A program made the translations under genes and the position numbers. From Acidobacteriota bacterium (lineage in GTDB: Bacteria > Acidobacteriota > Terriglobia > Acidiferrales > UBA7541), in the NCBI GenBank assembly GCA_013287135.1, contig JABDEK010000007.1, positions 1-64,000 on the forward strand: 64,000 nucleotides of DNA, given 5' to 3'. The notes below the pieces were generated by a model. It saw nothing but the letters and a program-made list of their open reading frames with translations. It was not told the DNA's origin and did no database searches. This document shows positions 52,896 to 57,772 of the stretch, in pieces (position 1 is the stretch's first letter; each line of letters starts with the position of its first letter).

Positions 52896-53684
52896 TTATC
52901 CCTCCGCCGATTTGATTTTCTGGTTCAACGCCGGGTCCTCGAGATTCGTCTTGAGGAATTCTGCCGAGGTAGGTAACTCCACCCGGAGATTATGTACGGT
53001 GCAAATCTGCACCTTACCGGCGCGAAGACGATAGTCCAGCGCGTGTCCTCCGGACTGTTTATCCTGCCGCAGAAAGTGCAGGTGAAACCCTGCCACGCCG
53101 ATACCCTGTGCATAAATCGGAGAACGAAATCCGGCCAAGGTTCCCTCCACGTTGGTGAAGACTTTCTCTGCTTGATGTTTCGCTGCTTCGGTGAGGGGAG
53201 GAAACGGCCTAGTCTGACGCTGCACGGTTCGCATGCGAACTTCATCGAAAGCGCCATCCACTCTTACCGCGCTGAAGAGGTTGGCATCCGTAGCTTTCTC
53301 AATCATCGCCAGCAGGTCGCTCTTTGTCATCGGCTGTACCAGATTCAACTCCCGCTCCGGCTGAAAAAAGGTAACCACGGCAAAAGGCGTCTTTTGGTCA
53401 TCTGTGACAGGACGAGCGGATCCATCCGATCTAACCTGATAGAACATCCCGTCAAAGCCCACCATCTCACCGTCGAGATCATTGAAAGTGCCAAGACCAA
53501 AATCGCCATGTTTCCGAATGTCCCCATACGTCATCTGACCTTCGTAATTCCCGGCTATCAAAGCGGACATCAAGGAGGTTTGATACAGCTCACCCGCTCG
53601 ATGATCGTTACTGCCGGAGACGTGGTGCCAAGCTGGCTGGATCATTGCGAGTGAACCGGATACAAGTGAATTGTCCATGCTCAT
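52896..53684 (-). CDS. budA: Alpha-acetolactate decarboxylase
   Basis: It converts (S)-2-acetolactate to acetoin. The 262-residue protein has GDFGLGTFNDLDGEMV near residue 60 and the zinc ligands in GFHLHFL and GGHALDY near residues 200 and 212; GDFGLG and the late His cluster are diagnostic. It begins four bases after the alsS stop. GAGAGG stands one base before the first ATG, so the second ATG (53678) may be the real start. The operon with acetolactate synthase is the standard pyruvate-to-acetoin pair. Confidence 0.93.
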   Translation of the reverse strand: MSMDNSLVSGSLAMIQPAWHHVSGSNDHRAGELYQTSLMSALIAGNYEGQMTYGDIRKHGDFGLGTFNDLDGEMVGFDGMFYQVRSDGSARPVTDDQKTPFAVVTFFQPERELNLVQPMTKSDLLAMIEKATDANLFSAVRVDGAFDEVRMRTVQRQTRPFPPLTEAAKHQAEKVFTNVEGTLAGFRSPIYAQGIGVAGFHLHFLRQDKQSGGHALDYRLRAGKVQICTVHNLRVELPTSAEFLKTNLEDPALNQKIKSAEG

Positions 53685-53688
53685 CCTC

Positions 53689-55374
53689 TCAATCCCACGC
53701 TTCGGGAATCACGTGTTCGCCGATTTCCACGTTCTTGCTGTAATCCGTCGGAATGTCCACCACGACTACGCCGGGCGTCTCGAGTGCTTTGCGCAAGGTA
53801 GGCACAAGTTCATCGGGCTTGTTGACCCTCATACCGACGCATCCGAGGCTCTCCACGTACTTCACAATGTCCGGATTTCCGAAATCCGTGCCTGAAGTAC
53901 GCCCGTAAAGCAGCTCCTGCTGAAAGGCGACCATGTTGTAGCTGCCGTCGCGAAAGACAAGGACTGTAATGTTCAACTTCGACCGAACCGCTGTTTCCAG
54001 TTCCATCGACGAAAAGAGGAAGCCCCCATCGCCCACGACCGCCACCACCTTCTTCGAGGGATAAGTAAAACTCGCCGCCATGGCCCACGGAATTCCTACT
54101 CCCAGTGTTTGCTGCCCATTAGTGAACAGGAGTTTGCGTGGTTCAAACTGGAAGAAGTGCCGCGCCATCCAGATGTGCACCGACCCCATATCGCACGCGA
54201 TAATAGTGTCATCATCGACCAGACTGCGCAGCGCCAGCACGGTGTTAAGCGGATAAACCGACGATCCGTGTGATTTCGGATCAGGAGGATTTTGCAGCGC
54301 CTTCCATTCTGCCTGAATCGCTTGCAGCTCTGGGCCTGCAGTGAACGATTGCTCCTGCAGCATTGATGCGAGCGCCGATATTGTGTCAGAAACCGATCCG
54401 CGCAGCTCCAACTCGGGTTCATAATGGTTATCGATGTCGCAGGGATAATCGTCCAGATGAATGATGGCCCTCGCCTTGCCCACGTTCCAGAAACTCGGGT
54501 CGAACTCGACCGGATCGTACCCGATGGTTAGCACGACGTCCGCCCTGGCGAGCAGCTTGTCTCCCGGTTGATTCCGGAACAGGCCCACGCGGCCGAAAAA
54601 TAGTGGGAGCAGTTCGCGCGATATCGCCCCTGCGCCTTGAAATGTGCCGACGACGGGTAAGGCGTGGCGCTTCAACAGAGCGCGCACTGCTGTGGTCGCA
54701 CGAGGCTCGCTAGCGCCCATGCCGAGAAGGATGACCGGGCTTTTCGCTTTCGATATTTTTTCCGCAGCTCGGCGAATCATGTCTTCAGGGGCTGCCCCCA
54801 ACGGCGGCAGCGGCAGCGGCGGCGGCACGCTGGCTTCGGTCACTGCACCCTGCACATCCCTCGGAAATGCAATAAAGGATGCTCCGGCACGAGGTGTCAT
54901 AGCCGCTCGAAAAGCATTCACAACCGCTTCACCGGCGGCTTCCGGCGCGTTGATGGCGACGCTGAATTTTGTTACCGGTTTCATGACGGCCACCGAGTCC
55001 ATCGATTGGTGCGTCTGCTTGAGGGTGTCCGCCAAAGGAACAATGCCGCCGATCGCCACCATGGGATCACCTTCGGTGGTGGCGGTGGCTGCGCCGGTCA
55101 CGAGATTGCCCGTGCCCGGGCCGGAGGTGACAAGACAGACCCCCGGCCTCCCGGTCAAACGCCCCACAGCGGCGGCCATGAACGCGGCGTTCTGTTCGTG
55201 ACGGCAGACGATCAACTGCGGACCTTCATCACGCAATACATCAAAGGTCGGCATGATCTTTCCACCCGGAATGCCGAATATATATTTGACATTCTGTTGC
55301 ATCAGGCTTCGGATCAATAAACGCCCGGCGGTTTGCTGTTTTTCTCTTGCTTTGGCTTCACCCGGAGTACTCAT
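53689..55374 (-). CDS. alsS: Acetolactate synthase, catabolic type
   Basis: A ThDP-dependent enzyme, it joins two pyruvates into acetolactate and CO2. A strong GGAGGAG precedes the ATG. The active-site Glu is in [17 protein letters not shown] and the ThDP motif [17 protein letters not shown] (GDG) are intact. Length 561 and the lack of an FAD-type regulatory partner, together with the adjacent decarboxylase, favour the catabolic (AlsS/BudB) form over IlvB. Expression likely responds to pyruvate overflow or acid, but no regulator is adjacent. Confidence 0.92.
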
Positions 55375-56109: not shown

Positions 56110-56149
56110 TCGTTCCTCGAAGGGAATCCCATCTCAGGAGATTAAAAAT

Positions 56150-56593
56150 ATGGCGCGACGCACGTTCCTGACTCAGCTGGCGGGTTTGCCTTTTCTAGCG
56201 TTGGGTCTGAAGGTCGAGGAGTCAAAAAAATCTCTCAAAATTATGATGAAAAGCGCGTGGGGGCCGGATGACCCAACAAGGGCAGCTTTTCCGTTCGCAC
56301 ACGGACTCGTGCTCGCAGAAGCGGGTCACGGGGTACAAATCTTCCTCCTCGCGGAGGCGACTTCTCTGATGCGAAAGTCCATGGTGAACGCGATTCTGCC
56401 GGTTGGCTGGCCACCGCTGAGCGAAACACTCGATAAGGTTGTGGCAAGACACATTCCGATCTTTGCTTGAGGAGCCTGTTCCCGGGCCCGTGGGGTCACG
56501 GAAACAGACTTGAATCAATGGGGAGCAAAATTTGGCAATCCGGCGATCTTTGTCTCGCTCGTGGAGTGGGCAGACCGGATAATCGTAGAGTGA
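56150..56593 (+). CDS. DsrE-family protein, candidate selenoprotein (in-frame TGA as Sec107)
   Basis: AGGAG precedes the ATG by nine bases. The first 106 codons encode MARRTFLTQLAGLPFLALG, a twin-arginine-like leader, and then a DsrE/DsrF core (FPFAHGLVLAEAGHGVQIFL, LDKVVARHIPIFA). A TGA at 56468-56470 follows. The same frame continues for 40 codons, GACSRARGVTETDLNQWGAK then FGNPAIFVSLVEWADRIIVE, before a second TGA. Those residues complete the DsrE fold, and TGA stands at the conserved Cys of the CxxC, giving U-G-A-C. A hairpin immediately follows. Full length would be 147 residues. Read conventionally it is a truncated 106-residue protein. The alternative is a nonsense-mutated gene, which is less likely given the intact tail. 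Confidence 0.78.
56476..56507 (+). promoter_or_regulatory. SECIS-like hairpin after the in-frame TGA
   Basis: In the message, CTGTT (56476-56480) can pair with AACAG (56503-56507), and CCGTG (56488-56492) pairs perfectly with CACGG (56497-56501). The apical loop is GGGT, with a 7-nt bulge on the 5' side. The apex lies 23-26 nt after the TGA. Bacterial SECIS elements place the loop about 16-37 nt past UGA, with G in the first loop positions. SelB recognition is inferred, not shown. Confidence 0.6.
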
Positions 56594-56758: not shown

Positions 56759-57030
56759 TCATGTTCTGGCCATCAGGTTTCGCAATCGACACAAGTTGTA
56801 GGCGGCCCCGGTTAAGATAAACAGCCACCCCACCTTGTCGATTCCTCTCAACTTCACCTTCTTTAGCATCCCAACCATTTTCATCCATCCGAACGATTGC
56901 TCCACTCGTTTGCGCTTCCGTTGACTCGCCTCGTACCCACATGCCGCGTGGTCCGCTCGTCTATCGCGCTCCTGCGATTGGTCGTGTTCTGTGCCACATG
57001 CAGAGTGATGTTCATCCCGCGCAGTTCGGT
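56759..57030 (-). mobile_element. IS5-family transposase remnant, frameshifted
   Basis: In one leftward frame LRGMNITLHVAQNTTNRRSA then IDERTTRHVG is read (57030 to about 56940). A frame change continues as YEASQRKRKRVEQSFGWMK and LRGIDKVGWLFILTGAAYNL, the C-terminus of IS5-type DDE transposases with the catalytic Glu in RVEQSFGW. The two halves align to one protein only if a frameshift is removed, and the N-terminal half (first Asp) is missing. It is inactive. It lies between the DsrE-like gene and the TetR regulator, showing past insertion and deletion here. Confidence 0.72.
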
Positions 57031-57059
57031 TCGATTGACTTTCCAATAGTTCAACATAC

Positions 57060-57073
57060 ATACTTGTCGGTAT
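57060..57073. promoter_or_regulatory. Candidate TetR operator ATAC-N6-GTAT
   Basis: The inverted repeat ATAC-TTGTCG-GTAT lies 28 bases before the GTG of the TetR gene, overlapping where its promoter should be. Short dyads of this shape are typical TetR-family operators, so autoregulation is likely. Confidence 0.45.
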
Positions 57074-57100
57074 ATTAGATGGGCGCGAGAGGAGGCGGAG

Positions 57101-57772
57101 GTGAGGAAGCGAAGGCTCCGTGATCCGGACGGTACACGGGAACGCTTGCTGCAAGCGGCTTTCCGGGAGGTCCGCCGATCAGGCTTCCAGAGTGCCGGCA
57201 TCAATACAATTCTCGCCGCCACCAACGTCACCAAGGGAGCCCTCTATCACCACTTCGACAGCAAGGAAGCTTTGGGATATGCCATCGTCGACGAGGTCAT
57301 CGCTAAACTTGTCCGGGACAGATGGTTGCTCCCTCTGCTTAGCGACGGGCAACCCATCGACATTTTGATCGGCATTGTCCGGCGGTTACCAACTCGACCC
57401 GCAGACGTTCGAGAAAGTTGTCCGCTGCTCAATTTGGCACAGGAGATGTCTCCGCTGAACGAACAATTCCGCAAGCGGCTGGAGAGGCTATTTCTTGCCT
57501 GGCAGGAAGGAATTGCTACGCTTTTGCGGAAAGGGCAGTCCCAGGGAACCGTTCGCCGCGACCTGAATCCAGACGAGACTGCCAGCTTTCTTGTCGCGAT
57601 GGTCGAGGGCCACGCCTCGTTAGCAAAGAATGCTCAAAATGCCAAGGTTTGGGAAGTCGGAACCAGAAACATAGTGGGGTGGTTGCAGTCTCTCCGGGCG
57701 CCACGTCAATCTCGGAGAGGCGGACGGCGGATGTTGAAGAAGCCTGTTCTCAGGCAACGGCAGGGATTCTGA
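57101..57772 (+). CDS. TetR/AcrR-family regulator
   Basis: The start is a GTG with GGAGGCGGAG directly upstream. The helix-turn-helix is TRERLLQAAFREVRRSGFQS through TNVTKGALYHHFDSKEALGY. The C-terminal domain carries ESCPLLNLAQEMSPLNEQFR, the TetR_C_6/YxaF-type pattern. A basic tail ends the protein. It is followed 40 bases later by an exported protein on the same strand, its most likely regulated partner. The ATAC-N6-GTAT dyad in front suggests autoregulation. The ligand is unknown. Confidence 0.9.
   Translation: MRKRRLRDPDGTRERLLQAAFREVRRSGFQSAGINTILAATNVTKGALYHHFDSKEALGYAIVDEVIAKLVRDRWLLPLLSDGQPIDILIGIVRRLPTRPADVRESCPLLNLAQEMSPLNEQFRKRLERLFLAWQEGIATLLRKGQSQGTVRRDLNPDETASFLVAMVEGHASLAKNAQNAKVWEVGTRNIVGWLQSLRAPRQSRRGGRRMLKKPVLRQRQGF

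Follow-up and report, generated by a model that had tools for sequence, protein, structure and literature searches.

Selenocysteine (Sec), the rare 21st amino acid, is encoded by what is normally a stop codon. A DsrE-like gene at positions 56150-56593 of contig JABDEK010000007.1 from an Acidobacteriota bacterium, within the stretch of 64,000 nucleotides called here the window (coordinates are on the + strand unless marked otherwise), is interrupted by an in-frame TGA, which raises the question of whether this codon ends the gene or encodes Sec. Judged from sequence comparison, the gene very probably encodes a DsrE/YchN-family selenoprotein of 147 residues, with Sec at residue 107. Coding runs on past the TGA, sel genes are present in the genome, and an RNA hairpin after the TGA is conserved with TGA alone.

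Coding continues past the in-frame TGA

The window frame starts ATGGCGCGACGC, reaches a TGA at codon 107 (56468-56470) after 106 codons and continues for 40 codons to a final TGA stop (56591-56593), with a likely ribosome-binding site, AGGAG (56136-56140), 9 nt 5' of the ATG. An earlier note, made from the DNA letters, had described this frame, and only the read-through form matches Pfam DsrE: PF02635 covers residues 38-145 (E 1.3e-9, 38.6 bits against a gathering cut-off of 22.7), whereas residues 1-106 on their own gave no Pfam match at E up to 1. No NCBIfam model matched the protein at E up to 1, and PF02635 was found at E up to 0.01 in all 35 members of relative set A3. A gene caller halting at the TGA would leave a 106-residue fragment and, since that fragment matches no Pfam family, the branch is readily overlooked in soil genomes.

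A species-genome scan returned the best 80 of 265 matching places, from which 79 distinct loci were kept; since the Cys codon is part of one of the two peptide patterns used, TGA genes are under-counted. Five of the 79 loci stop short of codon 107. Among the 74 that reach it, codon 107 is TGA in 15, TGC or TGT with Cys at 110 (an intact CxxC) in 57, and TAA or TAG in none; the other two are L109, which has Cys there but has lost the second Cys, and L124, which is frame-broken around a TGA copy. All 15 TGA loci have Cys in the 110 column (56477-56479 in the window), the partner in the U-G-A-C motif. The TGA thus stands at the first Cys of a CxxC, as the earlier note had proposed, and the alignment of homologues that it had suggested gives TGA or Cys and no other stop among the loci read at this codon. 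TGA occupies codon 107 in 18 aligned Sec sequences (Sec rows) and recurs in other assemblies. The frame-broken copy, L124:5990-6400, in which the TGA and the hairpin stretch are recognisable, is a pseudogene or an assembly error. Two further Sec copies, L048:6001-6441 and L049:3934-4374, are 97% and 95% identical to the window protein and lie on two contigs of one metagenome-assembled genome.

Purifying selection acts on the codons that follow the TGA. The pooled ratio of non-synonymous to synonymous substitution rates (dN/dS) in 13 Sec rows is 0.079 for codons 28-106, 0.037 for codons 119-147 and 0.207 for codons 108-118, where the RNA constraint described below depresses dS; all of these ratios are rough, since dS is near saturation. 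Between the window and its relatives L048, L049, L050 and L053, 0-1 non-synonymous and 3-11 synonymous changes have accumulated after the TGA. The post-TGA sequence (56471-56590) completes the DsrE domain, and a structural model of it has a predicted local distance difference test score (pLDDT) of 97-99. These results bear on the simplest rival explanation, a nonsense mutation that has left a pseudogene or a truncated 106-residue protein. The stop itself and the break near the same site in L124 speak for such a mutation, but the downstream codons have not decayed as they should after one, the stop recurs at one codon and is always TGA, and in the model truncation would cost the domain helices and its last two strands. 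We therefore consider a nonsense mutation extremely improbable.

An RNA hairpin conserved with TGA alone

Synonymous codon choice offers the strongest test for an RNA element after the TGA. Codon identity was counted wherever two sequences share an amino acid at a codon. At codons 111-117 the same synonymous codon is used in 719/929 comparisons among Sec genes (77%, 18 rows) and in 2058/7824 among Cys genes (26%, 55 rows), an excess that 0/300 random Cys subsets of equal size reproduced. On either side the two sets are alike: 3141/7603 (0.413) for Sec against 32018/80466 (0.398) for Cys at codons 28-106, and 0.459 against 0.427 at codons 118-147. The five top seven-codon intervals in the Sec set begin at codons 110 to 114. 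The first version of this count comprised 16 Sec and 55 Cys rows, without the frame-broken L124, L109 (which has lost its second Cys), L110 (which stops early), the odd L120 (46% identity) and alignments that span no more than 100 residues; the trees, the folding energies and the later Cys codon counts exclude L111 and L112.

The constrained codons coincide with a hairpin resembling a bacterial selenocysteine insertion sequence (SECIS) at 56482-56501. The RNAalifold consensus of 15 distinct Sec sequences is CCGGGCCC-GUG-GGGUC-A-CGG with one bulged base, which in the window is A 56498, with the loop at 56490-56492. In this register 93.4% of the cells of 17 distinct sequences are paired, and three pairs have changed on both sides (C-G to A-U, G-C to A-U and C-G to G-C). 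Shuffled alignments reached the observed values for paired cells, both-sided changes and covariation score in 0 or 1 of 500 cases, and the observed number of further pair types in 14/500; when the partner was shifted by 1 to 3 columns, pairing fell to 21-65%.

The hairpin that the earlier note had placed here has its loop 23-26 nt beyond the TGA. The site holds and such a loop can be drawn, but the register needs correction: its CCGTG-GGGT-CACGG register has 82.4% of cells paired across 17 distinct TGA sequences and no both-sided change, and ranks below the neighbouring one (82.4% vs 93.4% pairing, 0 vs 3 both-sided pairs), so the hairpin is better drawn in the CCGGGCCC register. A lower extension, CUGUU with AACAG (56476-56507), is present in the window sequence and broken in many relatives; with this lower stem the longer helix has 83.6% of cells paired and its lower pairs are often broken. 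Chance is excluded mainly because the only stop found at codon 107 is TGA, accompanied by an RNA constraint that Cys genes lack.

Selenocysteine machinery

The assembly that contains the window (4.38 Mb, 194 contigs, 79% complete) carries a tRNA-Sec (64.6 bits, cut-off 47), which ARAGORN also calls as tRNA-SeC with anticodon tca, a selB of full length (364 bits, cut-off 242) and selD (366 bits against 125). The genome of the nearest relative, L048 (G396; the locus equals L153 in the same-genus genome G515), has tRNA-Sec, selA and selB. The search for sel genes suggested by the earlier note was thus answered for tRNA-Sec, selB and selD and left selA missing, a gap that, given G396, is likely due to assembly incompleteness; the genome of the window is probably able to make selenoproteins. 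Two outcomes that the earlier note had named as refuting the Sec reading, a genome devoid of sel genes and decay of the codons downstream, were looked for and not seen.

Seventeen genomes with the TGA form were compared: the window's own, 14 from the species-genome scan, G410 (with the frame-broken L124) and G095 (with a double TGA, see below). With a tRNA-Sec search at E up to 1e-9 plus stricter filters for the relatives, tRNA-Sec was found in 13, selA over its cut-off in 13, selB over its cut-off in 15 and all three in 11. tRNA-Sec was tested in 30 chosen Cys genomes, and selA and selB in a selected 22 of these, including the 14 with tRNA-Sec, so no Sec/Cys contrast is drawn from selA and selB. 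The genome of the Cys locus L055 has tRNA-Sec, selA and selB over cut-off, so loss of Sec is possible without loss of the machinery.

Several observations weigh against the selenoprotein reading. Folding of single sequences is modest, with z about -2 for the window and near 0 in some relatives; on synonymous resampling the mean z is -1.45 in 16 Sec rows, with 7/16 in the lowest 5%, and 0.0 in 53 Cys rows, with 5/53 in the lowest 5%. Rfam lists no RNA family at the hairpin site at gathering scores. In the window's own assembly, 79% complete, selA was found with neither TIGR00474 nor PF03841, and two of the 17 TGA genomes (G405 and G408) have no tRNA-Sec, selA or selB over cut-off. The presence of tRNA-Sec is weakly tied to the TGA form (13/17 against 14/30 Cys genomes, Fisher p 0.067); as the machinery is common in both groups, this association is suggestive only. 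Finally, the sequence match that aligns Sec107 with the active Cys of TusD is weak (E 0.24).

Could the TGA instead specify Cys or Trp, through a suppressor tRNA or an altered genetic code? Cys is the usual residue at position 107, and some bacterial tRNAs combine the decoding of Sec and Cys. However, the final stop of the selenoprotein gene is itself TGA, as it is in 3 of the 11 window open reading frames (ORFs) checked, two of them with clear Pfam domains over 200 residues. The genome also has tRNA-Sec, selB and selD, and the RNA element accompanies TGA only. Decoding as Cys or Trp is, in our judgement, highly improbable, and the gene is best read as that of a selenoprotein.

Distribution and history of Sec and Cys forms

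In a search of the phylum, 35 of 396 genomes (the window's own included) gave matches with E no higher than 1e-5. Two distant relatives, L027 and L028, have Ser at the codon-107 site. Within the window's order, 14 of 95 genomes carry 16 copies at E up to 1e-20, of which 12 are TGA (the window's included) and four Cys. Ten of these TGA copies (the window's among them) and three of the Cys copies overlap or coincide with loci of the species-genome scan or the window; the order search added the loci L161, L167, L163 and L165. Genomes G515 and G471 carry two TGA copies apiece. Both forms occur in the window's genus, TGA in the window genome and G515, Cys in G511, G512 and G521. L052 (Candidatus Acidiferrum typicum) is the same locus as L158 in G482, from the family of the window genome, and G341 and G407 are one locus, counted once. 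Several record titles name other phyla, and labels of metagenome bins were not relied on. Plasmid records gave distant relatives only (two records, 36.7% and 32.8% identity). The selenoprotein gene is patchy within genus and order, and a remnant of a DDE transposase (PF13751, E 1.1e-7) lies just downstream of it at 56759-57154 (-).

A tree of 71 rows, from which L116 and L118 had been dropped beforehand, requires five changes of the Sec/Cys state, and well-supported branches force four of these; its columns are few and many of its forks are unresolved. An initial tree of 69 rows required four changes, three of them forced. Cys genes (L055, L165, and L070 with L074) are nested in the window's Sec clade, and a second Sec clade is separate from it. 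The second clade (L113, L114, L115, L116 and L121) comes from bins labelled as several phyla and has a common hairpin core, GGGCCC-GUG. Sec and Cys genes as close as these, in some cases from the same genus, form a set for testing the benefit of Sec over Cys and the rate of SECIS gain and loss.

Leader, fold and proposed role

The window protein begins with a leader, MARRTFLTQLAGLPFLALGL (56150-56209), in which a twin-arginine motif precedes a hydrophobic stretch, as in proteins exported by twin-arginine translocation (Tat). Across the 57 rows with an aligned leader, residues 3-4 are RR in 56 and RK/KR in one, and RRxFL occurs in 45; the twin arginine is present in 12/12 leader-bearing Sec genes. 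The Tat-like leader reported by the earlier note is therefore present, and the motif suggests that the product is probably exported by this route. The model has a pLDDT of about 50 over the leader. Export, if real, would mean that a major soil phylum carries out selenium chemistry beyond the cytoplasm.

The modelled fold is that of YchN, TusD and DsrE, with Sec107 at a strand end, before a helix, where it aligns, weakly by sequence, with the TusD active Cys, which corresponds to DsrE-Cys78, the sulfur-carrying residue in Allochromatium. The YchN of E. coli (1jx7) has Cys where the window protein has Sec, and its 117-residue chain begins at the domain and has no leader. TusD (2d1p_A) and DsrE (2hy5_A) are subunits of three-subunit complexes, DsrEFH being cytoplasmic, and TusD has Ala at the position of Cys110. 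At E up to 1 the NCBIfam model for TusD does not match the window protein, and TIGR03012 matches are weak, in 8 of 35 relatives (best E 0.0005). None of the 10 neighbouring window ORFs scanned has PF02635, and no gene for a partner subunit was found among them. Across 31 loci no conserved neighbour gene was found among ORFs of at least 90 residues; besides ORFs overlapping the gene, the sole ORF family in at least three of these loci was present in three.

SelB bound to the downstream hairpin would bring selenocysteinyl-tRNA to UGA codon 107, a step that we infer because the hairpin is conserved and sel genes are present. The 147-residue selenoprotein would then be exported by the twin-arginine route, as its signature suggests. 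Outside the cytoplasm, Sec107 may serve as the attacking nucleophile in a sulfur-transfer or a disulfide- or persulfide-reducing reaction, and Cys110 may resolve the intermediate as a selenenylsulfide. We give this role about an even chance. It is quite conceivable, though short of even odds, that the selenoprotein is instead a thiol peroxidase or disulfide reductase and takes no part in sulfur transfer, or that it is cytosolic, its RR leader being no working Tat signal. A 2005 survey (PMC1088965) lists U-x-x-C for several thiol oxidoreductases, and all five rows of the second Sec clade lack a twin-arginine leader ahead of the domain start; the DsrE/YchN fold and the match to the TusD active Cys speak for sulfur transfer. 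This alternative is compatible with a selenoprotein and competes only with the proposed role.

Relation to known selenoproteins

DsrE-like selenoproteins in environmental sequence, which the earlier note mentioned, have been in print since 2005, so the window gene adds a member to a known type. The published descriptions comprise two UxxC sequences from the Sargasso Sea in 2005 (PMC1088965), one in Desulfovibrio vulgaris in 2006 (PMC1794560) and DsrE 1 and DsrE 2 in the Global Ocean Sampling (GOS) survey of 2008 (PMC2398784); review tables of 2022 (PMC9312934) and 2026 (PMC13188914) give DsrE-like as UxxC. According to these descriptions, the published proteins share with the window protein PF02635 (no family is given for GOS DsrE 1), the UxxC motif and, for most, Cys homologues. 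They differ in source: those named are marine sequences and one from a sulfate reducer, whereas the window branch comes mainly from soil Acidobacteriota. The window branch has a twin-arginine leader. The deep-Sep study (PMC12013277) mentions one Acidobacteriota genome with three selenoprotein genes, and the word DsrE is absent from its main text. Among the matches listed, no title or opening of an abstract mentions a DsrE selenoprotein that comes from Acidobacteriota or carries a leader. As far as the literature searches go, the additions made here are the leader-bearing Acidobacteriota branch and the repeated switching between Sec and Cys. We tentatively picture a Tat-exported, Sec-dependent DsrE/YchN enzyme of soil Acidobacteriota that would act outside the cytoplasm on sulfane sulfur or selenium. 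In its family, the codon of one active-site residue may have alternated between UGA and Cys at least four times, with gain and loss of the SECIS element, and a more distant relative would have Sec at both motif positions (U-G-A-U).

Additional observations

This distant DsrE relative, locus L029 (= L168) of G095, at L029:1429-1782 (-), has 118 residues and TGA at both motif positions (U-G-A-U), unlike the DsrE-like UxxC with one Sec given in the table of the 2026 review (PMC13188914). It has a hairpin, GAGUCUC-GGUC-GAGACUC, with the loop 20 nt after the second TGA, and its genome has tRNA-Sec, selA and selB. A search for further double-TGA genes in 38 genomes of its class (E up to 1e-10) and two of its family (E up to 1e-12) matched only G095 itself. 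Elsewhere in the window, at 52896-55374 (-), a gene for acetolactate decarboxylase adjoins one for a thiamine-pyrophosphate enzyme, likely an acetoin pathway pair.
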